A DNA stretch of 64,000 nt, taken from assembly GCA_016192135.1 (NCBI GenBank), contig JACPUR010000041.1, positions 285,164 to 349,163 on the forward strand. The letters run 5' to 3'. Under the pieces are notes generated by a model, which worked only from the letters and a program-made list of their open reading frames with translations, ran no database searches and was not told where the DNA came from. This DNA is from Candidatus Tectomicrobia bacterium (GTDB lineage Bacteria; UBA8248). Numbering within the stretch: position 1 is the stretch's first letter; every line of letters begins with the position of its first letter. A program made the position numbers and the translations under genes. Positions 9,852 to 34,010 of the stretch are shown one piece after another.

Positions 9852-10754
9852 GCCGCCGACTCCCTCTCTCCCCTGCCCTGCAAGCCGTTGAGATAATCCG
9901 CCGCGCGTTGCGCATACACCGCCGCCGTGAAGATCGCCCGCTTGTCGTCCTTCAAGGCCTTGAGCCATGAGGCGATATAGGCGGCGTGGTCCTCCCTTGG
10001 CTCCGGTGTCAGGTCCAGGTCAGCCGACAGGAAAGCCGCGCCCAATTCCGCAACCAGTTCCTCCATGGCGTAGCCTTCATCCCCTCATTTCTTCCGGCCA
10101 AAGTCACGGTCCAGGCGCGAAGGGTGCCGCGTCCAGTGCGCGCATTCATGCGCCAGCGTGGCGTAATAGGTTCGACATCCCGAAAAGTTTCAAAGGGCGG
10201 CATCTGCACCCGGTCATCCGTGACGCTGTAATACGCCCGATTGCCGCCATGCCGAACATCCGCGCCCGTTCCGGCAAAGAACGATTCCGCATGTTCGATG
10301 CGCTGCACCGGATCCAGCCGGGGCTCGGCAAGCGCGTAATAATTCGCGGGCAAGCCCTCGATCTGCTCCACATTAAAAACGGTATATCCCTTCATGAAGG
10401 GGATTTCCCGCTCCTCCTCCTCGCCCGTCACCTCATCCGTTTCGGTCTTCGTAATGGTGTTGGCATACACCACAAGATAGCCCTTCTCCCCTTTCCGCAC
10501 ATGCGCGCCAAGTTCCTGGGTCTGGCGGAAGGTCATCCAGATGGGCGCCGCGTAGCCACAGGCCACAGAAACCGACCACAGCACAATGACGTTGATGCCC
10601 TGTACGGGGTGCCGTTATGGCGCAGCGGCTTCGTGATGCGGCCCGCCGCATGTTCCGCATTCCAGGGCTTAAGCCACGGGCGGGCCCCCTTCTCCAGATT
10701 GGCCACAATGCGGTCGGTGATGCGGACGTAAATGTCTTGCTTCTGCTGTGTCAT
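9848..10754 (-). pseudogene. ardC: ArdC-like antirestriction protein, multiply frameshifted
   Basis: The expected protein is split over three frames. The N-terminus (MTQQKQDIYVRITDRIVANL, then RPWLKPWNAEHAAGRITKPL) is read from 10754. It shifts near 10590 to YAAPIWMTFRQTQELGAHVR through YYSVTDDRVQMPPFETFRD. The region that should hold the HExxH-type zinc site (normally ATLAHECTHW) is out of frame near 10180-10080. The C-terminus (MEELVAELGAAFLSADLDL to GLQGRGERESAA) is in another frame from 10066. ArdC proteins are plasmid and ICE-borne antirestriction factors with an N-terminal ssDNA-binding domain and a metalloprotease-like domain. At least three indels make this copy non-functional. The start has a good GGAGGAC site. 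Confidence 0.88.
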
Positions 10755-14081: not shown

Positions 14082-16598
14082 TTAACGCGGTAGATACTCT
14101 TTTTGCAGGAAGTTGATTTCGCCGCAGGCCTGCGTCATCGCTGCCGTGCTCGGCGGGGTATTGTCATGGCAGGCATGGTTGACGGTATCCTTGAAAGCCT
14201 GAAGTTTTCCGGGGTGGGACGGATCATGGCCCAGCAGCGGATCCACGCGCGGGCACAACCATTCCAAGACCTTGCAGTTATAATCCGTGATGGATGCAGT
14301 TCCATTGCCTTTGGCGCGGCGGTCATTGACCAGCATCTCCTTGCAAAAGCGCTCACCGGCGTCACGCAAAAGAAGACCACACTCTTTACGTGAATCGGGG
14401 TGACCGCCGCGCGCTAGGGACTTGGCGCGGCTGATCTTGGCTAGTAGAGCATCGCTGGTGTTTTCGATTACGCTGCCATCGCCAGGTGTTTCCACGAATA
14501 GCTGGGCGGTCGAAATAGCGAGATGACGGTAGCGGGTTTCCAATTCCTTCCATGTGTCGTGATCCTGGGTGAGGACTATCACTTGCATGGGCAGCCCGAG
14601 AAGTTCGGACAACACCGTCGCATTGAAATGGACCCGGTAATCTTCGTCACTCGCAAGCACGGGATCATCAAGAACGATGAAGCCCAGCCTATCGTGTTCG
14701 GCGCGAGCGAGAAACAAAGCGAGGCCGAGACAATGAAGCTGGGAATGACTGAATACAGCGATCACATCGCGCACTTTCGGAGCGGAACGGTTGGGATTGG
14801 CGGAAAGCCCGGCCTTGAAATCGATAGTCCGCTTAGCCCCCTTTCGCGGCTGAACAGCGGAGAAGAATGTGGGCTCATCAGGCCGCAGCCAGTTCCACCA
14901 TTTCTCGATCAGTCCGCTATAGTCCGAGAATTTATCGTCAAGAACCTGTTCCTTAGCTCGGTCGATCTGCTTGAGTGCTGAATCAAGCTCCTTGGCAACG
15001 GCGACGCGTGCTGCGCGCTCGACCAAAACGGTCCGTAACATCGCAGGCTCTCGGGCGATATTGATGAAGTCCTGCCAACCGGCGGAATCTGCCTGGGCAT
15101 CGAGCACTTCATTGAGAGCGGCTATGAGTTCGTCGGCGGGGGCACTATAGGAGTCAATGGCAGCCGCGAAACGGGCGCGCAGCGTGACGAGCTTTGCATA
15201 GGCAGGCTGGAGCATCCTCGGATCGAGGGTCACCATGTCCGCTGTCTGTTGTTCGACGAGCATGGCGGTAGCACGTCCGCCGCGGCGTAGTGCGGCCGCG
15301 GCCCGGACTAGAGGTCGGATCTGGGCAAGCCAGGGATCAACAAATCCCGTGGCGCGATCGCCAAGGAGTTCCCGGATGCGGGCGACAGTGAACCCCATTT
15401 TCCGTCGCGTGCCGGTCGTGGTTTTAAGATAACGCGGCAGCGAGTCGTCGGCGGCAGTTGCAAGCGATGTCGCCGAAGATGAAAGCTGTAACAGAGCAGA
15501 CTTGGCGGCCGTTTCCGCCGTTTTGAAGTCTCTCGTTTCCTCGACATGGCGGCGGATGAGTTGCACACGTTCCGGCGTCAATGTTGACTTCGCGCCGCAT
15601 AAAGAACAATCGATCGGTTCCGTGATCTCGGAGATGGTCGGGAGTTTCAGCGCCTCATCAAATAGTGCCGCGAGCCGGCGTGTTTCATCATCGATCTTCC
15701 CGCGTTCGTCAAGATAGGTATTAAGACAGGTCCAAATGGTGACCGCAGGCGAATTCCAGCCTGTCAACTCCTCACGTTCGAACCCGCGCACCGGAAATGT
15801 CTTGTTCCGGCGGTCGGCCAGAATCCTCTCGATAGCCGCAAGCTGGTCGTCGAGTCCTTCCGGAGCTTCTTCGTCGGCGGCTTTGAGGAGGACGCGTGCC
15901 ACCTCGGTTATTCGCGCGGTAAACGTCGGCAGGTCGGGAGGGGTGCGCCCGAGTTGGTCGAGGATCTCCTTAAAATCGGGAATAGTTGCACAGGTGTCAA
16001 ATTTCTGGAGCAACGGATCGTCTGGCAGTGTCAGTTCCTCTGCCAGCGCGGCGATGTCGCTACGGAGAAGGTCGAGATCAGTGATTTCAAGCAGGGTTTT
16101 GAAATAAGTGGCGCGGTCCTGTGGGCGGACAGAAAATATGTAGCTGAGCGTGTGCTGGGCGAGGACTGGTGCCTGCAGAGGCGGTTGTGACAGCGTAATT
16201 CCCAGATTTTCGAGGTCAGATTCGGCGGCCACTGTCCCGTCGATTTCGAGACGGGATGTGCAATCTTGTCTCTTGCCATAATCACTCGTGAGGACACGTC
16301 TAATCTCGTGGGGACTTCCATCTGCCGCTGTGACGCTGGCTGCGACGTATACGCCCACGTCGGGGGGAAGATGCGCATTTCGCAGGGCATCGGCGAACTC
16401 GTCCTGAGTGCTTGCCATCAATTCCCGCCGCGCGATGCGTCCGGTGAGCAGGAACTCGAAGGCTTCCGCCAGGCTGGTCTTGCCTTTGCTGTTCGGTCCC
16501 CAGATGGCGGCAATGTCTGCTGGCAGGTTGAGTGTCTGCTCGGTGGCCCCGTAGGCTCGGAAGCCTTTGACAGAGAATGATCTAATCCGTAGCGCCAT
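14082..16598 (-). CDS. SMC/Rad50-like AAA ATPase with CxxC hook
   Basis: An 838-residue ABC-type ATPase. Walker A is GPNSKGKTS (residues 34-42). The signature region is VFSHSQLHCLGLALFLA (about 615-631). Walker B is FIVLDDP (about 640-646), and LTQDHD (about 676-681) is the H-loop. Between them lie helical arms around a single CSLC pair (331-334), placed like the zinc hook of Rad50 and RloC. The last 140 residues form an extra helical domain with HACHDNTPPS. Related overcoming-lysogeny, RloC-type and SMC-like ATPases act in phage defence by sensing DNA ends and driving a nuclease. No known nuclease domain was recognised here, so the effector may be the C-terminal domain or a partner. It overlaps the 81-aa gene upstream by 17 bases. 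Confidence 0.8.
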   Translation of the reverse strand: MALRIRSFSVKGFRAYGATEQTLNLPADIAAIWGPNSKGKTSLAEAFEFLLTGRIARRELMASTQDEFADALRNAHLPPDVGVYVAASVTAADGSPHEIRRVLTSDYGKRQDCTSRLEIDGTVAAESDLENLGITLSQPPLQAPVLAQHTLSYIFSVRPQDRATYFKTLLEITDLDLLRSDIAALAEELTLPDDPLLQKFDTCATIPDFKEILDQLGRTPPDLPTFTARITEVARVLLKAADEEAPEGLDDQLAAIERILADRRNKTFPVRGFEREELTGWNSPAVTIWTCLNTYLDERGKIDDETRRLAALFDEALKLPTISEITEPIDCSLCGAKSTLTPERVQLIRRHVEETRDFKTAETAAKSALLQLSSSATSLATAADDSLPRYLKTTTGTRRKMGFTVARIRELLGDRATGFVDPWLAQIRPLVRAAAALRRGGRATAMLVEQQTADMVTLDPRMLQPAYAKLVTLRARFAAAIDSYSAPADELIAALNEVLDAQADSAGWQDFINIAREPAMLRTVLVERAARVAVAKELDSALKQIDRAKEQVLDDKFSDYSGLIEKWWNWLRPDEPTFFSAVQPRKGAKRTIDFKAGLSANPNRSAPKVRDVIAVFSHSQLHCLGLALFLARAEHDRLGFIVLDDPVLASDEDYRVHFNATVLSELLGLPMQVIVLTQDHDTWKELETRYRHLAISTAQLFVETPGDGSVIENTSDALLAKISRAKSLARGGHPDSRKECGLLLRDAGERFCKEMLVNDRRAKGNGTASITDYNCKVLEWLCPRVDPLLGHDPSHPGKLQAFKDTVNHACHDNTPPSTAAMTQACGEINFLQKEYLPR

Positions 16599-16827
16599 CG
16601 AGCTTCGCTCTCACCCGTTCAAGACGTTCCGTGAGTACCGCCTTCATGGACGCGACCCGATCGTTGTTCTTTTGAGGGGTATGGTGTGCATGGACCAGCC
16701 GGGCAGCCAGGGAATCGCCCTCCAGGTGCTTCAAAAGGCGAGCAACATTGTCCATCGGACCAGTTTCATCGGGCATTAGTCGTTTTTCTCTCTCGTCTAG
16801 TGTTTCGACCCATTGTTCGAAGGTCAT
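16582..16827 (-). CDS. Small helical protein coupled to the ATPase
   Basis: Using the ATG at 16825-16827 gives 81 residues, largely charged helices: MTFEQWVETLDEREKRLMPD, AARLVHAHHTPQKNNDR and KAVLTERLERVRAKLDGATD. A longer start near 16929 is possible but reads through the intergenic promoter region. Its stop (16582-16584) lies inside the ATPase gene, so the two are translationally coupled and probably work together. No family was recognised. It could be the partner or inhibitor of the ATPase. Confidence 0.55.
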   Translation of the reverse strand: MTFEQWVETLDEREKRLMPDETGPMDNVARLLKHLEGDSLAARLVHAHHTPQKNNDRVASMKAVLTERLERVRAKLDGATD

Positions 16828-16910: not shown

Positions 16911-16946
16911 TTGAAAACACCCTAAGCATCTATTATTATTACGACT
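16911..16946 (+). promoter_or_regulatory. Sigma-70-type promoter of the fic operon, probably leaderless
   Basis: TTGAAA (16911-16916) and TATTAT (16934-16939) are separated by 17 bp. The expected start of transcription, 7-8 bases beyond the -10 box, falls on the ATG at 16947. No Shine-Dalgarno sequence precedes that ATG, so the mRNA is probably leaderless. The same short interval must also hold the promoter for the divergent ATPase operon. Confidence 0.6.
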
Positions 16947-18179
16947 ATGCGTGGCCGAGAAACGGACAAGAAACCGGACATCTTAGCGGCCGACCGGGAC
17001 GAGCCGGTCAGCCTGATGGAGCCGCTGCTGGTGAGCGAAAGCTCCAGGCACCGGGCGGCCCTGACGGACCTCGCGGTCGAACTGGCGGCCCGATCGGCGG
17101 GATTCCGGCGCAGCCTGCCGGAGGGTGTATTGACCGCGCTCGCCGATCTTGTCCGGGCGATGAACTGTTATTACAGCAACCTGATCGAGGGCCACGATAC
17201 CCATCCCGTCGATATCGAGCGCGCGCTCAAGGGCGACTACAGCGCCGACGCCAAGAAACGCAACCTCCAGCTCGAAGCCAAGGCTCATATCACCGTCCAG
17301 AAATGGATCGATGAAGGAGGTCTGCGGGGCCGCGCCGCGACAACTGAGGGCCTGTGCGAGATCCATCGGCGCTTCGGCGAATTGCTGCCTGAAGACCTCC
17401 TCTGGGTAGAAAACCCGGATACAGGAGAAAGGCTCAAGGTGGTCCCCGGTGCGCTCCGCCAGCGCCACGTCAAGGTGGGCCTCCATATTCCTGTGAGCTC
17501 CGGTGCCGTGCCGCGCTTTCTGGAGCGCTTCGAAACCGTCTACAGCCAGCTCGGCAAGACCGACGCCATCCTGGCGGCCGCCAGTGCGCATCATCGGCTG
17601 CTCTGGATTCACCCCTTCCTGGACGGCAACGGCCGCGTCGCCCGCCTGATGTCCTATGCGATGCTGCTGGGAACCCTCGATACGGGCGGGATCTGGTCCA
17701 TCGCGCGGGGCCTCGCCCGCAACCAAAGCACCTACAAAAGCCAGCTGATGGCCTGCGATACGGAACGCCGCAACGATCTCGACGGAAGAGGGCCGCTAAG
17801 CGAAGAGGCTTTGGCGGAATTCACGCACTTTTTCCTTTCCACCTGCCTCGACCAGGTGGCATTCATGGAAGGGCTCGTCCAGCCCGACCGGCTGCGCGAC
17901 CGCATCCTGATCTGGACGGAAGAAGAAATCCGGGCCGGTGCCCTGCCCCCGAAATCCGGCGCCGTCCTGGAAGCGGTGCTCTATCGCGGGGAATTGCCCA
18001 GGGGCGAAGTCGCCCGTCTGATCGACACCGGCGAGCGTCAGGCAAGGCGCGTGACCTCAGTGCTCATCGAGCGCGAAGTGCTGGTCTCGGAAAGCACGCG
18101 CGCGCCGCTACGCCTCGCCTTCCCCGCCAAACTCGCCTCCCGCTGGATGCCGGGGCTATTTCCGGAAAGGGCGGCATAG
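16947..18179 (+). CDS. Fic-domain protein
   Basis: A 410-residue protein. The Fic active site is HPFLDGNGRVAR near residues 225-236 (consensus HxFx(D/E)GNGRxxR), with the catalytic histidine present. Near residue 75, YYSNLIEGHDT matches the (S/T)xxxE(G/N) inhibitory helix of class II Fic proteins, where the glutamate blocks ATP gamma-phosphate binding. The C-terminal 120 residues (GAVLEAVLYRGELPRGEVAR to LIEREVLVSESTRAPLRL) look like a winged helix. Fic enzymes usually AMPylate a protein target. The stop codon touches the start of the next gene (TAG ATG), so this is the first gene of an operon with two restriction-type genes. Confidence 0.92.
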   Translation: MRGRETDKKPDILAADRDEPVSLMEPLLVSESSRHRAALTDLAVELAARSAGFRRSLPEGVLTALADLVRAMNCYYSNLIEGHDTHPVDIERALKGDYSADAKKRNLQLEAKAHITVQKWIDEGGLRGRAATTEGLCEIHRRFGELLPEDLLWVENPDTGERLKVVPGALRQRHVKVGLHIPVSSGAVPRFLERFETVYSQLGKTDAILAAASAHHRLLWIHPFLDGNGRVARLMSYAMLLGTLDTGGIWSIARGLARNQSTYKSQLMACDTERRNDLDGRGPLSEEALAEFTHFFLSTCLDQVAFMEGLVQPDRLRDRILIWTEEEIRAGALPPKSGAVLEAVLYRGELPRGEVARLIDTGERQARRVTSVLIEREVLVSESTRAPLRLAFPAKLASRWMPGLFPERAA

Positions 18180-19100: not shown

Positions 19101-19212
19101 CAATATTTTAGCAGTTCGGCGCACGGATTCACTCGCCCGGGCCGATTGTATGAAATCCTCTTCTTTGGCAAAGTGTCTCCCGCCCATGTAGAGCCACCGC
19201 CCCGGAGGCCCG

Positions 19213-22200
19213 ATGGACGCCGCCGAAGCCTATTTTCGCGATCTGCGCGAAATCCGCCGCACCGGCGCGGGCGTGGCCGAACTTTCCTACTATGGTCCTC
19301 TCCGCAACCTCCTGAACGAGATCGGGAAATCGCTCAAACCCCGGGTGAATTGCGTCATGCCCCTCGCTGACCAGGGGGCCGGGATGCCGGACGGCGGGCT
19401 GTTCACCCGGGACCAGTTTCAGCGCGGGAGGGGGGAACCTCTCCCCGGCCAGATACCCGCCCGGGGCGTGATCGAAGTAAAGTCCACCAAAGAGGACGCC
19501 TGGGTGACGGCGAGCGGGAAGCAGGTCTCCCGCTACTGGAAAAAGTACCGTCAGGTCCTGGTGACGAACTACCGGGATTTCGTTCTCATCGGCCAGGACC
19601 AGGAAGGCCGTCCCGCCAAGCTCGAGTCCCTCCGCCTCGCCGGGAGCGAGGCCGAATTCTGGGGGACGGCCTCCCGCACCATCGCGCAGAAGGAGGGCGA
19701 ACGCCTAACGGAATATCTCAAGCGCGCGATGCTCCATGCCGCCGCACTCGCCGACCCGCAGGACCTCGCCTACTTCCTCGCCTCCTACGCGAAGGAGGCC
19801 AAGGCCCGCATCGAGGGCTCTGATCTTCCCGCCCTCGGGGCCGTGCGCGAAGCGCTGGAGCAGGCCCTCGGCCTGAAATTCGAGGGTGAGAAGGGGGATC
19901 GCTTTTTCCGCTCTACCTTCATACAGACCCTCTTTTACGGCGTCTTTTCCGCCTGGGTGCTCTGGGCCAAGACCCATCCGCCCGGAAGCAAAGAGCGCTT
20001 CCACTGGCGCGAGGCGGCGTGGTCCCTCAAGGTTCCCATGATCCGCGCGCTCTTCGAGCAATTGGCGACTCCCACGCGGCTGGGGCCGCTTGGGCTGGAG
20101 GAGGTGCTGAACTGGACGGGGGCGGCGCTCGACCGCGTGGACCGCGCCTCCTTCTTCCAGCGCTTCGAAGAGGGGCACGCCGTCCAGTATTTTTACGAGC
20201 CCTTCCTCGCCGCCTTCGACCCGGAGTTACGGAAGGAACTCGGCGTCTGGTATACGCCTCCGGAAATCGTGCGCTACATGGTGGAGCGCGTGGACGCCGT
20301 GCTCCGCGCCGAACTCGATATTCCGGACGGCCTGGCCGACCGCCGCGTCTATGTTCTCGACCCTTGCGCGGGGACGGGCTCCTACCTCGTTGAGGCGCTG
20401 CGCAGGATCGCCGACACCCTGCGGGAAAAAGGCGGAGACGCCCTCCTCGGGGAGGACGTGAAGCGCGCGGCGATGGAACGCGTCTTCGGCTTCGAGATTC
20501 TGCCCGCCCCCTTCGTGGTTTCTCATCTCCAGCTTGGCCTCCTGCTCCAGAATCTCGGTGCACCTCTCGGGGATACCGAGCGCGCGGGGGTGTTCCTCAC
20601 GAATGCCCTCACGGGCTGGGAGCCACCGGAGGAACCCAAGACAAAGTTTCTATTTCCGGAGTTGGAAGCCGAGCATGACGCAGCGGGGAAGGTAAAACGG
20701 GAAGTGCCCATTTTGGTAATCTTGGGGAATCCTCCTTACAACAGTTTCGCCGGGGTGGCAGTCGGTGAGGAACGAGACCTCTCCACCGCATACCGCACCA
20801 CGCAACGAGCTCCAGCCCCTCAGGGACAGGGGCTCAATGACCTCTATGTTCGATTCTTCCGAATGGCGGAACGCAAGATCGTGGACAGAACAGGCAAAGG
20901 AATTGTCTGTCTTATCTCCAATTATTCCTGGCTTGATGGGCTGTCTTTTCCCGGCATGCGCGAGAGATACCTTGATGCGTTTGACCACATCTGGATCGAC
21001 TGCCTGAATGGGGACAAGTACAAGACAGGAAAGCTAACTCCTGAGGGCGAACCGGACCCCAGTGTCTTCTCGACCGAATTCAACCGGGAAGGTATCCAGG
21101 TGGGGACGGCCATCGCTTTGCTTGTCCGGGAGGGGAAGCCGAGAAAGACTGGTGAGGTCCGGTTCCGCCATTTATGGGGCAAGAACAAGCGCGCCCGACT
21201 TGTTGAGACCGCAGCACAGGATGGCAAGAGTCTATACCAAACGGCGACCAGCCCTGCTGAACTCGGTTTCCCCTTCATGCCTGTGCGGGCGCAATCCGCG
21301 TATTTTGGGTGGCCCCTTCTTCCAGAGGTATTCCCTGTCTCCTTCCCCGGGGTCAAAACCAGCCGGGATAATGTGGTGGTTGACATTGACCGGGAGCGGT
21401 TGGCCCGACGCATGGAGCAATATTTTGATCCGACGATCAGCCATGAAGAAATGCGGCGCATCGCCCCAGGGGTAATGGCGGCCACCGCACGGTTCAAACC
21501 AGAGGCAATCCGCGACCGACTTCTAAAGCGGGGCTTCTTGCCGAACAACATTGTTCGGTGCTGCTATCGCCCCATGGACGTGCGGTGGCTCTATTGGGAG
21601 CCCGAAACAAAGTTGTTGGATGAAAAACGAAGCGAATATTTTCCGCACGTCCGGGAAGGCAATATCTGGATGAGCGCGGGCCAGCGGAACCGGAAGGAAG
21701 CATTCTACCAACCGCAGGTTACCACTCTCCTAACCGACCATCATATCGTCGAATCGAATGTTAGCATGTTCCCCCTTTTTCTCTTTGATCCCATCTTTGC
21801 CGGGGACAAATCGGGTGGGCAAAAAGCCAATCTGAGCCGGGAGGCTGAGAACTACCTATTGAAGATCGGAGGGACTGAGCGGGATCTCTTCTTTCATGCC
21901 ATCGCAGTTCTTCACGCTCCAGCGTATAGCAGTGAGAATGTGAGTGCGTTGCGGCAAGACTGGCCGAGGGTGCCGCTTCCCGCTTCGAAGGAAACCCTCC
22001 TCGCCTCGGCGGAACTGGGCCGGAAGGTGGCGGCCCTCCTCGACACGGAGAGTCCCGTCCCAGGCGTCACGGCGGGGAAGCTGCGCCCCGAGATGCGCTC
22101 CATCGCTGTGGTTTCAGGATTTGGGGGCAAGAAACTGAGCGCGGCGGACCTGGCGGTCACGGCAGGCTGGGGCCACGCGGGAAAGGGGGGCGTCACCATG

Positions 22201-22620
22201 CCGGGCAGAGGGAAGGTTATGGCTCGGCCCTACGAACCCAGGGAGCGGGAAGCCATCGCCGAGGGGGCGGAGGTGCTGGGCCTCACGCCGAAAGAAGCTC
22301 TCAAGGGGCTGGGCGCGGATACACGGGACATTTACCTAAACGACACGGCGTATTGGAAGAATATCCCCGAAAGAGTGTGGGATTACCATATTGGGGGCTA
22401 TCAGGTCATCAAGAAATGGCTGAGCTACCGCGAGCGAGACCTCTTCGGCCGCGCCCTCACGGCAGATGAGGCGCGCGAGGTGACGGACATGGCCCGGCGG
22501 ATCGCGGGCATCCTCCTTCTGGAGCCTGCCCTTGATGCGAACTATCAGGCCATTAAGGGAGCGGCCTTCGTTTGGGGAAACGGCTCCTTGGTCTGCTCCC
22601 CGAATCTGAGTCCACCCTGA
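19213..22620 (+). CDS. Single-chain restriction-modification enzyme (Type ISP/IIG-like N6-adenine methyltransferase)
   Basis: An 1135-residue protein with ATG behind GGAGG. N-terminal residues 50-110 carry a PD-(D/E)XK pattern (MPDGGLF, then GVIEVKSTKED). A helical linker follows. The methyltransferase core has motif I VYVLDPCAGTGSYL (about 378-391) and motif IV ILGNPPYNSFAG (about 504-515), the NPPY of N6-adenine enzymes. The last 400 residues form the target-recognition part (FNREGIQVGTAIALLVREG; YQVIKKWLSYRERDLFGR). No helicase motifs were seen, so it is closer to Type IIG or a helicase-less Type ISP relative. The C-terminus LVCSPNLSPP and the stop come from the palindromic element, so a few native residues were replaced. 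Confidence 0.85.
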   Translation: MDAAEAYFRDLREIRRTGAGVAELSYYGPLRNLLNEIGKSLKPRVNCVMPLADQGAGMPDGGLFTRDQFQRGRGEPLPGQIPARGVIEVKSTKEDAWVTASGKQVSRYWKKYRQVLVTNYRDFVLIGQDQEGRPAKLESLRLAGSEAEFWGTASRTIAQKEGERLTEYLKRAMLHAAALADPQDLAYFLASYAKEAKARIEGSDLPALGAVREALEQALGLKFEGEKGDRFFRSTFIQTLFYGVFSAWVLWAKTHPPGSKERFHWREAAWSLKVPMIRALFEQLATPTRLGPLGLEEVLNWTGAALDRVDRASFFQRFEEGHAVQYFYEPFLAAFDPELRKELGVWYTPPEIVRYMVERVDAVLRAELDIPDGLADRRVYVLDPCAGTGSYLVEALRRIADTLREKGGDALLGEDVKRAAMERVFGFEILPAPFVVSHLQLGLLLQNLGAPLGDTERAGVFLTNALTGWEPPEEPKTKFLFPELEAEHDAAGKVKREVPILVILGNPPYNSFAGVAVGEERDLSTAYRTTQRAPAPQGQGLNDLYVRFFRMAERKIVDRTGKGIVCLISNYSWLDGLSFPGMRERYLDAFDHIWIDCLNGDKYKTGKLTPEGEPDPSVFSTEFNREGIQVGTAIALLVREGKPRKTGEVRFRHLWGKNKRARLVETAAQDGKSLYQTATSPAELGFPFMPVRAQSAYFGWPLLPEVFPVSFPGVKTSRDNVVVDIDRERLARRMEQYFDPTISHEEMRRIAPGVMAATARFKPEAIRDRLLKRGFLPNNIVRCCYRPMDVRWLYWEPETKLLDEKRSEYFPHVREGNIWMSAGQRNRKEAFYQPQVTTLLTDHHIVESNVSMFPLFLFDPIFAGDKSGGQKANLSREAENYLLKIGGTERDLFFHAIAVLHAPAYSSENVSALRQDWPRVPLPASKETLLASAELGRKVAALLDTESPVPGVTAGKLRPEMRSIAVVSGFGGKKLSAADLAVTAGWGHAGKGGVTMPGRGKVMARPYEPREREAIAEGAEVLGLTPKEALKGLGADTRDIYLNDTAYWKNIPERVWDYHIGGYQVIKKWLSYRERDLFGRALTADEAREVTDMARRIAGILLLEPALDANYQAIKGAAFVWGNGSLVCSPNLSPP

Positions 22621-25525: not shown

Positions 25526-26503
25526 TCACGCATGCGGGCTGAGGGGCTGGGAATCTTCGCGGGGCACAGGCGGATTTCCCCGCCTCTTGGTCCTTCGGCG
25601 CATCATCTCCTCGACGCGCGACTCGACTTCCTGCGCCAGCCGTGACGGCCGGGGGGTTGTCTCCTTTAACCGAGAGAATTCGCTGGCGATGCGCCTCTCG
25701 AGTTCGCGCCGCGGGAGGCTCAGGCACTCCCTCATGAGCGCGTCCGCCTCACCTTCCTTCCAGCGACAGCGACGAGGCAGCTTTGCGTCATAGGTTTGGG
25801 CGCAGAACAGGTATCCGCAGATGGTTCTGCCTTCGTGCCGGACGGTGAACCCCTTGCCCGTTTTCTCGGCACGGGCCACCCACAGCAGGAGATGGTCGCG
25901 CAGCAGGACCAAATGATCGTAATGGAGCTTTTCTTCCGGGGACTTGGGCCCGTCGACGAAGGCCTCGCCGCTCTCCGGGTCCAGGACGATGTCGTCCGGG
26001 TGCGGCAGGAGATCCGGGTCCGGGAGGCCTTCGCGCCGGTGCTCGGCGAGCGCCTCTTCGCCTTTCTGCTTGAGGATCTTGAGATCGGCGTAACGCTCCG
26101 CCTTGAACCGCAGATGTTCCTCCTCGATGCGCGCGAGGCGCTCCAGGAACTGTTTTTGCGCGAGCCGATTCCCCTTGAGCGCCAGCATGATGGAGGCCCG
26201 GTAGACCGCCTGGGCCGCGGGCAGCTCGACCGTCCGCCCGTTCTCGAGCAGGGTGATGAGGCGGTAGGCCTCCTCCTGCAGGAAGCCGTCCGAGGGAGCG
26301 TCGGACAGGCGCTGCCGGCGCGCCTTCGGCTTGCGCGGCCGGCCGTTCGGGTTGCCCGACCGGCCCTTGGCGAAGCGGCTCGCGGCCGGAGGCTTCCTAT
26401 AGCCGACCTCGTAGCCACGCCCCGGAGCGGTCCGGCCGGGCTCCGCGGCCTCCGCCCCGGGCATTGTGCCTTCTGACTCATGAGGTTCGTGGATTTCGGT
26501 CAT
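25526..26503 (-). CDS. DUF5681-domain protein (phage terminase small-subunit-like)
   Basis: A 325-residue protein. Residues about 35-62 read GYRKPPAASRFAKGRSGNPN followed by GRPRKPKARR, the DUF5681 signature. That basic loop occurs at the front of phage and GTA proteins that precede the terminase large subunit. The rest is helical and charged (EEEHLRFKAERYADLKILKQ). Its ATG overlaps the stop of the ParB-methyltransferase gene by 4 bp (26500-26503), so both are one transcript. No terminase large subunit follows in the window, suggesting a prophage remnant or an isolated pair. Confidence 0.78.
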   Translation of the reverse strand: MTEIHEPHESEGTMPGAEAAEPGRTAPGRGYEVGYRKPPAASRFAKGRSGNPNGRPRKPKARRQRLSDAPSDGFLQEEAYRLITLLENGRTVELPAAQAVYRASIMLALKGNRLAQKQFLERLARIEEEHLRFKAERYADLKILKQKGEEALAEHRREGLPDPDLLPHPDDIVLDPESGEAFVDGPKSPEEKLHYDHLVLLRDHLLLWVARAEKTGKGFTVRHEGRTICGYLFCAQTYDAKLPRRCRWKEGEADALMRECLSLPRRELERRIASEFSRLKETTPRPSRLAQEVESRVEEMMRRRTKRRGNPPVPREDSQPLSPHA

Positions 26504-27858
26504 GCCACTTGGTCCTTCCCTACGGGCGCGTGCATACGGTGTTCCTCGGCTTCCTCGAAGCGCTCCCCCGTCGCAACCAGGGTCGCGTGCCGGCCGGTCA
26601 GGATCTCCCAGCGCCGGACGATGGTGTCGCAGTAGGCGGGGTCGTACTCCAGGAGCCGGGCGCGGCGGCCCGCCTGCTCGGCCGCGATCAGGGTCGTGCC
26701 CGAGCCCCCGAAGCCGTCCAGCACCATGTCCCCCCGCCGCGTACAGTCGCGGATGGCGTCGGCGACCAGGGCGACCGGCTTAACCGTGGGGTGCATGGCC
26801 AGCTCGGCGCTCCGGTCCGCCCCGAAGCTGTTCACGCCCGGGTAGTCCCAGACGTTGGTGCGGTAGCGCCCGGTCTCGCCGAGGCCGAAGGTGTTGAGGT
26901 GGGGGGCGTCTCCCACCTTGAACACGAAGACCAGCTCGTGCTTGGAGCGGTAGAAGGTCCCCATGCCGCCGTTGGTCTTGTTCCAGACGCAGAGGTTCTT
27001 GAGCTCGCTGAAGGCCCGCCTCCCCGCCGCCAGGAGCTCGCCCATGTGGCGCCAGTCCATGCAGACGAAGGCGATCGCCCCGTCGCGGCACGTCCCGGCG
27101 GCGGCGCCGAGCGTCTCCGCCAAGAAGGCCGTGAACGCCGGCTCGGACATCTCCCCGACGCCCATGGCGAACTCCCGGTGGCGCACACGGCCCAGGCCGC
27201 TCACGTGGCCGTCGATGGGGACGTTGTAGGGGGGATCGGTGAAGATCATGTCCGCCGTCTCGCCGCTCAGCAGGGTCGCGTAGTCGGAGGGAACTCGGGC
27301 GTCGCCGCAGAGCAGCCGGTGGCGGCCGCATTGCCAGAGGTCGCCGCGCCGGCTGACCGCCGCGGCGGGCGGGGGCGGAATCCGATCCGCCGGCCCGGTC
27401 GGGCCGGAGGGGTCGCGCTCGCCCGCCGCGTCCAGCACCAGGTCCACCTCGGCCAGGGAGAAGCCGGTCAGTTCCACGTCGAAGTCGAGGTCGACGAGGG
27501 CCTGCAGCTCGACCGCCAGGAGGTCCTGGTCCCAGCCGGCGTTCAGCGCCAGCTTGTTGTCCGCGATGACGTAGGCCCGCCGCTCGGCGGGCGTCAGGTG
27601 GGACAGGCGGACCGTGGGCACGTGGGTCATGCCGAGGAGCTCCGCCGCCGCCACCCGGCCGTGCCCGGCGAGGATGGTGCCGTCGTCGGCGACGAGGACG
27701 GGGTTGGTGAAGCCGAAACGGGCGATGCTGTCCGCGAGCTGCCGGACCTGGCGCTTCGAGTGCGTCCGGGCGTTGCCTTTGTAGGGCCGGAGGGCCGCGA
27801 CGGGCCGCTCCTCGATGCTCCGCGCCCGGTTCCTCGGATCGGATGGTTCCTCTCTCAT
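26500..27858 (-). CDS. ParB-domain DNA methyltransferase (phage type)
   Basis: A 452-residue fusion. Residues 20-130 are a ParB/sulfiredoxin-like domain (LRPYKGNARTHSKRQVRQLA, then GFTNPVLVADDGTILAGHGR). From about residue 175 a beta-class amino-methyltransferase follows, with DMIFTDPPYN (motif IV) near 210 and MVLDGFGGSGTTLIAAE (motif I) near 395, in the order typical of beta-class enzymes. Such proteins are common in prophages and GTA-like clusters, modifying adenine or cytosine amino groups to protect phage DNA. It precedes the DUF5681 gene, with a 4-bp overlap. Confidence 0.9.
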   Translation of the reverse strand: MREEPSDPRNRARSIEERPVAALRPYKGNARTHSKRQVRQLADSIARFGFTNPVLVADDGTILAGHGRVAAAELLGMTHVPTVRLSHLTPAERRAYVIADNKLALNAGWDQDLLAVELQALVDLDFDVELTGFSLAEVDLVLDAAGERDPSGPTGPADRIPPPPAAAVSRRGDLWQCGRHRLLCGDARVPSDYATLLSGETADMIFTDPPYNVPIDGHVSGLGRVRHREFAMGVGEMSEPAFTAFLAETLGAAAGTCRDGAIAFVCMDWRHMGELLAAGRRAFSELKNLCVWNKTNGGMGTFYRSKHELVFVFKVGDAPHLNTFGLGETGRYRTNVWDYPGVNSFGADRSAELAMHPTVKPVALVADAIRDCTRRGDMVLDGFGGSGTTLIAAEQAGRRARLLEYDPAYCDTIVRRWEILTGRHATLVATGERFEEAEEHRMHAPVGKDQVA

Positions 27859-28132
27859 GCAGGTCCTCGTCGGGCGGTGGTGTCGCGGTGATGATCCGGA
27901 TGCATCTGGGTGAGCTTCTCGGTGAGCTTCTTGGTGCGGTTCGAGGGAGATGATTCCCGGCTCGAGGGGGGGATGTCAAGAGGAAAGTAGGGGGACGGTG
28001 ATTTTTGTCAATCGTGAGATTTGGCGCGGGCTGCATCGAATCCCATCACGTTCCAGCTGCGGGATCGGAAGCGGGAGAATTATCCCTGATCGTTTCCGAT
28101 TTGCTCATGTCAATCCCATCTAAGTGCGCTCC

Positions 28133-28196
28133 GATCCCGCTTGCCGGATCGAAATTCCCACTTCGATCCCGCTTGGCGGGAGATTTTTCCCACTTC
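28133..28196. repeat. Tandem 32-bp repeat, two units and a partial third
   Basis: Unit 1 is 28133-28164 and unit 2 is 28165-28196. Both start GATCCCGCTTG and end TTCCCACTTC, with variation in the middle. A partial third unit follows (GCGTCCCGCC at 28197). An inverted copy of part of it (CCGTCGGGATC) lies near 28211. Confidence 0.8.
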
Positions 28197-28467
28197 GCGT
28201 CCCGCCAATCCCGTCGGGATCTCAAGAGGCTTGCGCGGTCGTGGATGCCGTCTTCCGTGTCATGGCCCTCCGCGCAGGCTGCGACCGGAGCCGGCAATGG
28301 CCCGAGCGAGCACCCCGCAAGCGCAGGATTGGCGGGTGATTTCATGACCGGTGTCCGGATGGCGATGTGGCGGCTGTGGCCGACAGGATGGAATCAGTGG
28401 GGTTGTCGGCGGGCCGGGATCTCGGTGGTTACAGGGGACTGGCGTCTTCCCTCTTCGCCGCCGGGCG

Positions 28468-28645
28468 TTACCCTGTTCCTTTGTGCAAATTCCCTGTTCT
28501 GCGTTGGAAGATTCCCTGTTTCCTCGCATAGGGAATTCGACGTAAAGTGCAAGAAAGCCGAGTGTTTCCAGGGGCAAAAGGCGCTGGGTGTGCCGTGGAC
28601 GGAGAGAAATTCCCTGTATTTTCCCTGTTTAACAGGGAATTGGGC
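28468..28645. repeat. Cluster of TTCCCTGTT repeats, direct and inverted
   Basis: Within about 180 bp the motif appears as ACCCTGTTCC, AATTCCCTGTTCTG, GATTCCCTGTTTCC, AATTCCCTGTATTTTCCCTG and, in the other orientation, as TAGGGAATTC and AACAGGGAATTG. The last direct and inverted copies form a hairpin, CCCTGTTTAACAGGG. Iterons of a binding protein, operator arrays or a structured RNA are all possible. Confidence 0.75.
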
Positions 28646-29238
28646 GGAGAAAGGTTCGCAGCGGACTGCACCCACAGCCAGTTTTTCCCAATAAAAATCC
28701 CGACGCCTTCAATGGCCGCCGCGCCGGCTGTGTGGGATTTGGCACGTGCTCCCTCTCGCGCCGTTCCTCTCTCCGGCGATCGCCGCCTTTACCTTCTCCT
28801 GAAGCCGACAAAGCCTTTTCGGATGTTTTGGTTTTTCGCTAAAACCATTTATGATCCGCTTCGATTAAAAGGCGTTTGGATGAGCCGTCCTCCGGATGTC
28901 AAAGGACATCCCCTGAATTCACCCGGGATCTCCGGACGCTGCCGTTCCGGGCGGGCGTTCCGCCGAGCCGCCTCCCTTCAATCTTGCCGCTTTCATCTTC
29001 CACCGTTCGTATGGGAGAGGCGTTCCCAAACGGGCGGCGCCGCGCGGTGCATCCCGGATGCGGCATCCAGGGCGGCTGGCGGAAAGCCGATGGAATCCAC
29101 CTGAGGAGAACCAAGGAATGTTGCCGCATCATTCCCGGCTGATAGATGCGCAGGCTCGTTCAAGCCGTTTCCGGGCTCGATCGGGGGGCAGCCTGCTCTC
29201 CCTCGGCGGGACAGATTTCCATGGAAAGGAGGGAAACC

Positions 29239-30252
29239 ATGCAGCCATATGATCCCGAGCAAGTGTTACGGGAGCTGCAGAATCGCTTCCGCGACTTCAA
29301 GGGCTTGAAGTTTCTCCCGATTGTCCTGGCCGGACTTCTCCTGCTCTTGCTTTGGACGGCTTGGTTCACGGTGCAGCCCGAGCAGACGGGCGTTGTTCAG
29401 CGTTTCGGAGCCGTGGTCCGGACGGTGGGCCCGGGCCTTCACTTCAAGCTACCGCTCGGCGTCGAGACAACCCGCTTGGTTCCCACGGCCCGCGTCCTCA
29501 AGGAGGAATTTGGATTCCAGACGGTGGCGCCGGTCGCCGGCCAGCGGACGCAGTACAGGGACAGCAGGGCGTTCAAGGACGTGTCCTTGATGCTGACGGG
29601 GGACCTGAACGTAATCGACGTCCAGTGGATCGTCCAGTACCGGATCGAAGATCCGATCCGGTACCTCTTCCGGGTCCGCGACACGGGGCAAACGATCCGG
29701 GACATCTCCGAAGCCGTCATGCGCCGGGTGGTGGGCAACCGGCTGGGCAGCGATGTGCTCACCGTCGGCCGCGTGGCCATTTCCACGGAGGTGAAGAAGG
29801 AGATGCAGGAGATTCTGAACACCTATGACACCGGCGTCCGCCTGGTTACCGTGGAACTCCAGGACGTGACCCCGCCGGATCCCGTGAAGCCGGCCTTCAA
29901 TGAGGTGAACGAGGCACGTCAGGACAGGGAGCGCACGATCAACCAGGCCGAGGAGCAGGCCAACCGGGAGATTCCCAGGGCCCGGGGAGAAGCTTTAAAA
30001 ACCATCAGCGAGGCCGAGGGATATGCGCTCGAACGTGTCAACCGGGCCACTGGAGAGGCCCATCGGTTCGAGGCGGTGCTGGAGGAATACCAACGCGTTC
30101 CGGAGGTCACCCGTCGGCGCCTCTACCTGGAAGCCATCAACGCCATTCTGCCCGCGGCCAGGGCTTTGTACGTTGTCGATAGTGATCAGAAGGCCCTGGT
30201 GCCGTGGCTCCCCCTGGAGTCGGGGCAGGCGCCCGCAGCGGGAGGAAAATAG
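29239..30252 (+). CDS. hflK: FtsH protease modulator HflK
   Basis: The ATG at 29239 follows AAAGGAGGG and gives 337 residues. A single membrane segment (LPIVLAGLLLLLLWTAWFTV, residues about 25-44) is followed by the SPFH/band-7 domain (VQPEQTGVVQRFGAVVRTVG to NVIDVQWIVQYRIEDP), then a long helical coiled region (EARQDRERTINQAEEQANRE). HflK forms a membrane complex with HflC around FtsH and restrains its proteolysis of membrane proteins. hflC starts three bases after the stop codon. The N-terminal Gly/Pro-rich cytoplasmic tail of enterobacterial HflK is short here. Confidence 0.93.
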   Translation: MQPYDPEQVLRELQNRFRDFKGLKFLPIVLAGLLLLLLWTAWFTVQPEQTGVVQRFGAVVRTVGPGLHFKLPLGVETTRLVPTARVLKEEFGFQTVAPVAGQRTQYRDSRAFKDVSLMLTGDLNVIDVQWIVQYRIEDPIRYLFRVRDTGQTIRDISEAVMRRVVGNRLGSDVLTVGRVAISTEVKKEMQEILNTYDTGVRLVTVELQDVTPPDPVKPAFNEVNEARQDRERTINQAEEQANREIPRARGEALKTISEAEGYALERVNRATGEAHRFEAVLEEYQRVPEVTRRRLYLEAINAILPAARALYVVDSDQKALVPWLPLESGQAPAAGGK

Positions 30253-30254
30253 CC

Positions 30255-31247
30255 ATGCCAAGAATTCTAACGGGTATATTCGGAGCCTTAGTGGTGGTGG
30301 GCCTTCTCGTTCTCTCCGGGACTTTCTACACGCTGGAGGAGGGCCAGCAGGCCATCGTCCTCCAGTTCGGCCGCCCCGTGGGCGAGCCCGTCACGAAGGC
30401 GGGCCTCCACGTCAAACTCCCCTTCATTCAGGAGGTGCGCCGCTTCGAGAAGCGCCTCCTCATCTGGGACGGGGACCCGAACCAGATCCCGACCAAGGGG
30501 CGGGAGTTCATCTGGATAGACACCACGGCGCGCTGGCGAATCGTCGACGCCAAGAAGTTTCTGGAGAGGGTGGCCACGGAGGCCGGGGCCCAATCCCGGC
30601 TGGACGACATCATCGATTCCGTGGTCAGGGACCAGGTTTCCTCCAGCGAGCTTGTGGAACTGGTCCGAAGCGCCACGTGGGAAGTTCCCCAGGGAGAGGC
30701 CCTGAAGGAAGTGCCGGCCGAGCAGGCGAAGGAGCTGGTGAAGGAGGTGGCGCGCGGGCGGGAGGAGATCACCCGGGCCGTCTTGACGGAAGCCCGGAAG
30801 GTCATTTCGGAGTATGGAATTGAACTGGTGGACGTGCGAATCAAGCGCTTGAATTACGTGGACAGCGTCCAAAAGAGGGTGTTCGACCGGATGATCTCGG
30901 AGCGCAAGCGTATTGCCGCCCAATTCCGGTCCGAGGGAGAGGGCCGGAGCGCCGAGATTCTGGGAAACATGGAGAAAGAACTCCGCCAGATCCGCTCCAC
31001 CGCCTACCGGCGGGTGCAGGAGATCCGGGGGAAGGCCGACGCCGAGGCCACGCGCGTGTACGGCGGCGCCTATGGCCGCGATCCGGAGTTCTTCGCCTTC
31101 TCGCGCACCCTGGAGACCTATAAGGACGGGCAGAACAAGAACTCGGTGATGATCCTCACCACGGACAGCGACTATTATCGGTATCTGAAGGAGGCCAAGC
31201 CCGGGGCCCAGCCGCCGACAGCGCCCCTCGACGCGCGCAAAAAATAA
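30255..31247 (+). CDS. hflC: FtsH protease modulator HflC
   Basis: A 330-residue protein with ATG behind GGGAGGAAAA. One N-terminal membrane segment (ILTGIFGALVVVGLLVLSGT) is followed by a band-7 domain (FYTLEEGQQAIVLQFGRPVG; GLHVKLPFIQEVRRFEKR; WIDTTARWRIVDAKKF). The C-terminal block, EFFAFSRTLETYKDG and MILTTDSDYYRYL, is characteristic of HflC. It is the second gene of the hflKC operon and forms a hetero-oligomer with HflK on the periplasmic face of the inner membrane. Confidence 0.94.
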   Translation: MPRILTGIFGALVVVGLLVLSGTFYTLEEGQQAIVLQFGRPVGEPVTKAGLHVKLPFIQEVRRFEKRLLIWDGDPNQIPTKGREFIWIDTTARWRIVDAKKFLERVATEAGAQSRLDDIIDSVVRDQVSSSELVELVRSATWEVPQGEALKEVPAEQAKELVKEVARGREEITRAVLTEARKVISEYGIELVDVRIKRLNYVDSVQKRVFDRMISERKRIAAQFRSEGEGRSAEILGNMEKELRQIRSTAYRRVQEIRGKADAEATRVYGGAYGRDPEFFAFSRTLETYKDGQNKNSVMILTTDSDYYRYLKEAKPGAQPPTAPLDARKK

Positions 31248-33936: not shown

Positions 33937-34010
33937 TGGGGGATCGTCTAGAGGCAGGACACGAGACTTTGGATCTCGTTACCCAGGTTCGAATCCTGGT
34001 CCCCCAGCCA
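33937..34010 (+). tRNA. tRNA-Gln (anticodon TTG)
   Basis: The 74-nt gene has a 7-bp acceptor stem TGGGGGA/TCCCCCA, an anticodon stem CGAGA/TCTCG around the loop CTTTGGA with anticodon TTG, and a T arm CCAGG-TTCGAAT-CCTGG. It has discriminator G and encoded CCA. All helices pair fully. No integrated element adjoins its 3' end, where a cupin gene begins 57 bp away. Confidence 0.97.

Follow-up and report, generated by a model that had tools for sequence, protein, structure and literature searches.

The integrases of phiC31 and Bxb1 are large serine recombinases (LSRs) with Resolvase and Recombinase domains. Their attP and attB sites share a short identity, integration leaves hybrid sites at the two ends, and the crossover falls at a central dinucleotide. 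LSR sites are usually simple, about 40-50 bp long, and as a rule do not lie at tRNA 3' ends, which are the classic sites of tyrosine integrases. Islands and prophages of the tyrosine type insert at the tRNA 3' end, restore the tRNA and leave a tRNA-like mark at their far end, and their sites usually share a block longer than 6 bp. SCCmec cassettes (CcrA/CcrB) build up in tandem at re-created sites.

Among phages, Paracoccus phage vB_PamS_Pami6 has a serine recombinase and is predicted to lie in tRNA-Met, while for the largest cluster of Paracoccus prophages, with 11/15 serine recombinases, no integration site was identified (PMC6536676). Variants of Wolbachia phage WO (Symbioviridae) integrate in a magnesium chelatase gene or at intergenic sites (PMC9203015). 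A ParB-methylase at a phage end and a DUF2924 gene adjacent to the recombinase have been reported (PMC10299305), and a large LSR survey described multi-targeting enzymes and left tRNA unmentioned (PMC10083194). In the literature that we searched, which covered few subscription journals, we found no description of the arm-core motif reported here or of a serine integrase that combines many tRNA targets with a conserved repeat arm.

The locus studied here lies in a 64-kb window (the whole stretch of DNA that was analysed, 64,000 nt), where a first-pass annotation had marked a gene-free block as a possible undescribed non-coding element. That label was misleading. The block very probably does not stand alone but forms one end of an island integrated at a tRNA gene, namely the attR of a 31,054-bp integrative element inserted by an LSR at the 3' end of a tRNA-Gln(CTG) gene. 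This reading is built on sequence comparisons, which establish both ends of the island, their spacing, six nt of identity with the tRNA, a common anatomy of five islands from four genomes, an empty site in four Xanthobacter congeners and the linkage of one LSR class to tRNA 3' ends. Two of the options that the annotation had offered, a mobile element and a site array, were thus right in kind, as the block is the attachment site of a mobile element and holds an array of presumptive protein-binding sites.

The island resembles the phiC31 and Bxb1 systems in its Resolvase-Recombinase LSR, its short attP/attB identity and its hybrid end sites, and the crossover would likewise fall at a central dinucleotide. 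It differs from them in its conserved arm of ~200 bp and in a family range of at least six tRNA types. With tyrosine-type tRNA islands and prophages it shares the insertion at a tRNA 3' end, the restored tRNA and the tRNA-like mark at the far end, but its recombinase is of the serine type and its identity block is only 6 nt. The combination of serine recombinase and tRNA target recalls Pami6. Phage WO is among the closest phage records of the LSR (33-35% over most of its length), although its target sites are not tRNA genes and no TTCCCTGTT arm was seen in the one WO record examined; Acidithiobacillus phage AcaML1 matched at 49% over 57%. The LSR also bears a family resemblance to the SCCmec recombinases (135 bits against NCBIfam CcrB), and the probable tandem build-up described below is a further likeness. 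This score falls well short of the 900-bit CcrB cut-off, however, and the SCCmec target is a protein gene, not a tRNA.

Table 1. Features of the island, its attachment site and related loci (window positions unless a contig or locus is named)
Feature	Position	Strand	Basis or remark
Island left end: tRNA-Gln, LSR and DUF2924 genes	G000:C41:282716-284899		Outside the window
Island interior	1-28464		G+C mostly below that of the chromosome on the right
ArdC antirestriction gene	10009-10614		Window island
SMC-like ATPase gene	14082-16610		Window island
Fic gene	16926-18179		Window island
Type-ISP methylase/specificity protein	19192-22620		Window island
DUF5681 gene of island	25526-26503	-	Pfam PF18932; same neighbour elsewhere
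DNA methylase gene of island, adjoining attR	26500-27858	-	Pfam N6_N4_Mtase; same neighbour in other islands
Two 32-bp units of the first-pass annotation	28129-28192	+	23/32 identical; outside the conserved element
Whole conserved element, very probable attR (element-side arm and core)	28465-28680	+	Alignment of family copies, 63 other loci, far-end partner
TTCCCTGTT-type direct repeats, left part of arm	28469-28520	+	28469 (one mismatch), 28490, 28512
Exact TTCCCTGTT sites in block (n = 4)	28490, 28512, 28621, 28631	+, +, +, -	
One-mismatch TTCCCTGTT sites (n = 3)	28447, 28469, 28610		
TTCCCTGTA then palindrome TTCCCTGTTTAACAGGGAA	28610-28639	+	Near-invariant across copies, without covariation
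Palindrome TTCCCTGTTTAACAGGGAA	28621-28639		
34-bp core GAGAAAGGTTCGCAGCGGACTGCACCCACAGCCA, putative LSR half-site that ends like a tRNA	28647-28680	+	Column counts, alignment
CAGCCA, matching the last 6 nt of the target tRNA-Gln	28675-28680	+	
Chromosomal right flank B'	28681-29145	+	By analogy with the Xanthobacter empty site
SPFH/Band-7 gene pair, HflK/HflC-like	29146-31247		Right of the flank
Island at tRNA-Gln	G085		~35 kb
Island at tRNA-Tyr	G085		~38 kb
Island at tRNA-Tyr	G100		24 kb
Core-only GAGACTGGTTCGCATnnGTCTGnCAGCACCGCCA loci	L189:5593-5626, L191:5620-5653, L192:5886-5919, L193:6306-6339, L194:5948-5981		

The near end of the island lies outside the window on contig C41, 31 kb left of the block. 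There, a tRNA-Gln(CTG) gene (282716-282789) is followed by P' (TGCAGTC...), then by an LSR gene with Pfam Resolvase and Recombinase domains, and then by a DUF2924 gene, all in the same orientation as the block. The LSR gene adjoins the other att site, and the 6 nt CAGCCA are common to both ends. The element ends at C41:313843, and window positions 1-28680 are the right part of the island. G+C content was 0.48-0.66 over most of the island, compared to ~0.66-0.75 over most of the chromosome side, with the methylase stretch (0.71) as an exception inside the island. A second tRNA-Gln gene, with anticodon TTG, lies at 33937-34010 of the window, 5.3 kb right of the attachment site, and is not the target of this island.

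The type-ISP methylase/specificity, Fic, SMC-like and ArdC genes between window positions 10009 and 22620 are likely defence and counter-defence cargo. Further families in the window part of the island are a Mutator transposase, an M78 peptidase, DUF6508, DUF5681 and the methylase, whose relatives have a ParB-like N-terminus. The large ORFs of the window that were tested gave no capsid or tail families, which makes 'integrative island' a safer label than 'prophage'; a terminase-like gene was present in a related viral contig.

The first-pass annotation had drawn the block from 27990 to 28700. Its extent held for 28465-28680, while 27990-28460 lies outside the conserved element. The two 32-bp tandem units that it described fared less well: they agree at 23/32 positions, gave no TRF call and have no counterpart in other copies. 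The TTCCCTGTT repeats, in contrast, are real and occur on both strands, albeit with four exact copies in the block, not the six or more first counted. Five copies were found in the 64-kb window against 0.31 expected, and none of 100 shuffles reached five. The reported hairpin is present as the palindrome TTCCCTGTTTAACAGGGAA. In the aligned copies the order is an arm of ~200 bp with TTCCCTGTT repeats, then the palindrome, then the 34-bp core GAGACnGGTTCGCnnnnGACTGCnnnCACCGCCA, after which the copies diverge; the left edge of the ~200-bp unit is not sharply common to the copies.

Could the block be a structured non-coding RNA gene, as the annotation had also allowed? The hairpin CCCTGTTTAACAGGG is conserved, as is the block as a whole outside coding DNA. 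However, the covariance check that the annotation had suggested gave no compensatory changes in any of 10 predicted pairs over 48 copies, no Rfam family matched at threshold, and the boundary of the element is a recombination junction. The helix bases are invariant, which fits DNA-binding sites and not RNA. We consider an RNA gene extremely improbable. The TTCCCTGTA-palindrome stretch is, from its conservation, a likely protein-binding site, and the TTCCCTGTT array presumptively consists of such sites.

The statement in the first-pass annotation that the block and the stretch after it recur in Alphaproteobacteria was correct. When 84,980 species genomes were scanned once with a pattern, 63 loci were found, which lie in Alpha-, Beta- and Gammaproteobacteria, Nitrospinota/Tectomicrobia, Acidobacteria and Pirellulales. 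The element occurs in 10 of 18 genomes of the family, with 1-6 matches each, and the source genome has two further, partial copies. Plasmid and phage records searched with the element DNA gave no significant match, and a pattern scan of viral contigs gave no matches with a strict pattern and two with a looser one.

Such dispersal could also be that of a small, self-mobile repeat, MITE-like or REP-like, that lies beside recombinase genes by chance. Up to six copies occur in one draft genome, about 50 of the 63 loci have no LSR or methylase gene inside the fetched flanks, and many Tectomicrobia copies lie near the palindromic TGCATGGCGAATTACTAATT. Most of the genomes are drafts, with contigs that often stop at the element. 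Against the attR reading, many copies have no partner tRNA or LSR in view; these may be decayed, or their partners may lie on other contigs or further away. No partner tRNA was found for several other copies (the left 40-60 kb were read for some), and in the family drafts no island was found to have a copy of the 34-bp core on each side. What speaks against a free-standing repeat is its edges and its setting. An IS or MITE would have terminal inverted repeats and a target duplication around the ~200-bp unit; here the left edge is not sharply common to the copies, and on the right nearly all of them stop at one CCA, that of a tRNA 3' end. Moreover, a tRNA gene and an LSR gene lie 24-38 kb left of the element in five islands from four genomes, the window island included (tRNA-Gln and tRNA-Tyr), and the empty site is a tRNA gene.

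The empty site was found with the flanks of the Xanthobacter AM3 island. In AM3, a tRNA-Gln gene lies 32.4 kb from the element, with an LSR remnant after it; the end of the element reads ...GTCAGCCA/TTAC... (junction at the slash). In four congeners of AM3, the tRNA-Gln gene ends with ...CAGCCA and the right flank comes immediately after, without an element; the junction in one of them reads ...CCAGGCGCCCCAGCCA/TTAC.... The relatives of the window genome, searched from the side of the SPFH genes, were too diverged there for an empty site to be recognised. With this evidence the free-standing repeat is largely refuted, and we give it very little credence.

Several other repeats were seen near the copies. 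In the Tectomicrobia/Nitrospinota family a dispersed palindromic repeat has the half-site TGCATGGCGAATTACTAATT (for example L038:68-4306, L045:3255 and L048:5636) and is found either alone or as a near-perfect palindrome of 29 bp, in many cases <300 bp from the attachment element. We considered TGCATGGCGAATTACTAATT as the terminal repeats of the element and rejected this, as these are common palindromic repeats of the clade that lie near some copies only. Left of the AM3 copy (L106 left flank) is a dispersed repeat of ~250 bp with a very common core of 32-48 bp, found in many Xanthobacteraceae genomes. Five Rhodobacteraceae genomes have the 34-bp core as GAGACTGGTTCGCATnnGTCTGnCAGCACCGCCA, lacking the TTCCCTGTT arm; these loci are possibly the far ends of a subfamily that targets tRNA-Ser.

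Which recombinase made the island? An all-versus-all comparison of reading frames around the copies showed that the recurrent neighbours on the right are LSR genes with DUF2924, pointing toward the element, while those on the left are a ParB-like DNA methylase with DUF5681, pointing away from it. LSR genes were collected from two alphaproteobacterial samples, one with 100 genomes of a single family and the other with 61 genomes. Long-form LSRs, which have 490 aa or more counted from the catalytic start, ended beside a tRNA 3' end or an element copy in 21 of the 24 loci that had enough downstream DNA (18 tRNA, 3 element), at a distance of 133-411 bp; neither was in view for the other three. Only 1 of 32 other LSR loci did so, a truncated LSR (Fisher p = 3e-11, a descriptive value as the class cut-off was chosen after two length groups had been seen). 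The targets were tRNA-Ser, Gln, Met, Tyr, Ala and Asn. DUF3489 follows this class and separates the two better than DUF2924 does, being present at 23/27 long LSR loci compared to 2/32 others. DUF2924 was rejected as a marker of the tRNA-targeting class, since it accompanies 27/27 long and 30/32 other LSR loci. A single open frame at L101:3961-5895 fuses DUF2924 to a serine recombinase, which suggests that the two work together. The second, shorter LSR class (~427 aa after the catalytic start, for example L262, L266 and L288) is common in Alphaproteobacteria; it has DUF2924, mostly lacks DUF3489 and is not found beside tRNA genes.

A tyrosine integrase, with the LSR as a passenger, could in principle also have made this attR. 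tRNA 3' ends are the usual place for that class, and the TTCCCTGTT array resembles its arm-type sites; an arm of ~200 bp is unexpected for LSR sites and counts against the LSR. Nevertheless, no Phage_integrase (PF00589) gene was found near the elements in ten genomes, nor was a tyrosine integrase found beside the tRNA in the window genome, where the neighbour of the tRNA is the LSR. The tRNA and the element also have only 6 bp in common. We therefore regard a tyrosine integrase as most unlikely and retain the LSR as the enzyme that very probably inserted the island.

The position of the crossover is indicated by two features. In all five tRNA-element pairs, exactly the 6 terminal nt are common (CAGCCA or CCACCA), beyond which the sequences differ. 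In addition, AGTC is found at +3 after the CCA on the LSR side in 13 of 63 loci, against 0.25 expected, and forms a dyad with the GACT of the core, the centre of which is the first two of the six common bases. The start of the identity run and the centre of the dyad are independent observations, and they point to the same dinucleotide, as LSR chemistry would need. We infer that the crossover dinucleotide is at tRNA positions 71-72.

In a circular form of the island, the attachment site would read P arm (with the TTCCCTGTT array), core, CAGCCA, P' and LSR gene. Recombination with a tRNA that ends with ...N-CCA, presumably performed by the LSR, would keep the tRNA whole at one end, with P' and the LSR gene after it, and would place the arm and core next to the chromosomal flank at the opposite end. 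The TTCCCTGTT array may bind an accessory or directionality factor, for which DUF2924 or DUF3489 are candidates.

Some copies are flanked by an LSR gene without a tRNA. In two Boseongicola species, one locus aligns at 97% over 3.7 kb and the alignment splits exactly at the CCA, after which one species continues into P' and an LSR gene and the other into unrelated DNA. On the complete chromosome G043, two directly oriented copies are separated by 22 kb, in the order DUF5681-methylase-element-LSR-DUF2924-DUF3489 ... DUF5681-methylase-element. At L149, an LSR fragment and a long MFS/acyltransferase/AMP-ligase gene lie between two elements that are 5.1 kb apart. These arrangements probably arose when later elements inserted at an older attR that mimics a tRNA end, and then decayed. 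A first model, with direct-repeat copies at both ends and an element-bearing target, fits the tandem cases but not the tRNA-LSR ends, and was replaced by the tRNA model. More broadly, we suggest tentatively, and with the balance a little against it, that these are a distinct class of serine recombinases, an exception to the rule of simple sites, that recognise the 3' end which many tRNA genes have in common and cross over at positions 71-72, with a TTCCCTGTT arm, bound by DUF3489 or DUF2924 as a partner, setting direction as arm sites do for tyrosine integrases, and tRNA-mimicking attR sites serving as landing pads, which would lead to tandem islands.

Prophages and islands with serine recombinases often lack a mapped integration site. 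An identity of 6 bp is below what repeat-based methods can use, and repeat-based island finders would miss the far end, for which the arm-core motif provides a search handle; for the near end, the rule is an LSR gene that ends ~130-410 bp from a tRNA. A serine integrase for many tRNA genes could serve as a tool for DNA insertion, and its repeat arm offers a testable departure from the view that serine integrases work without accessory sites. The element marks entry points of islands at tRNA genes in several bacterial phyla.
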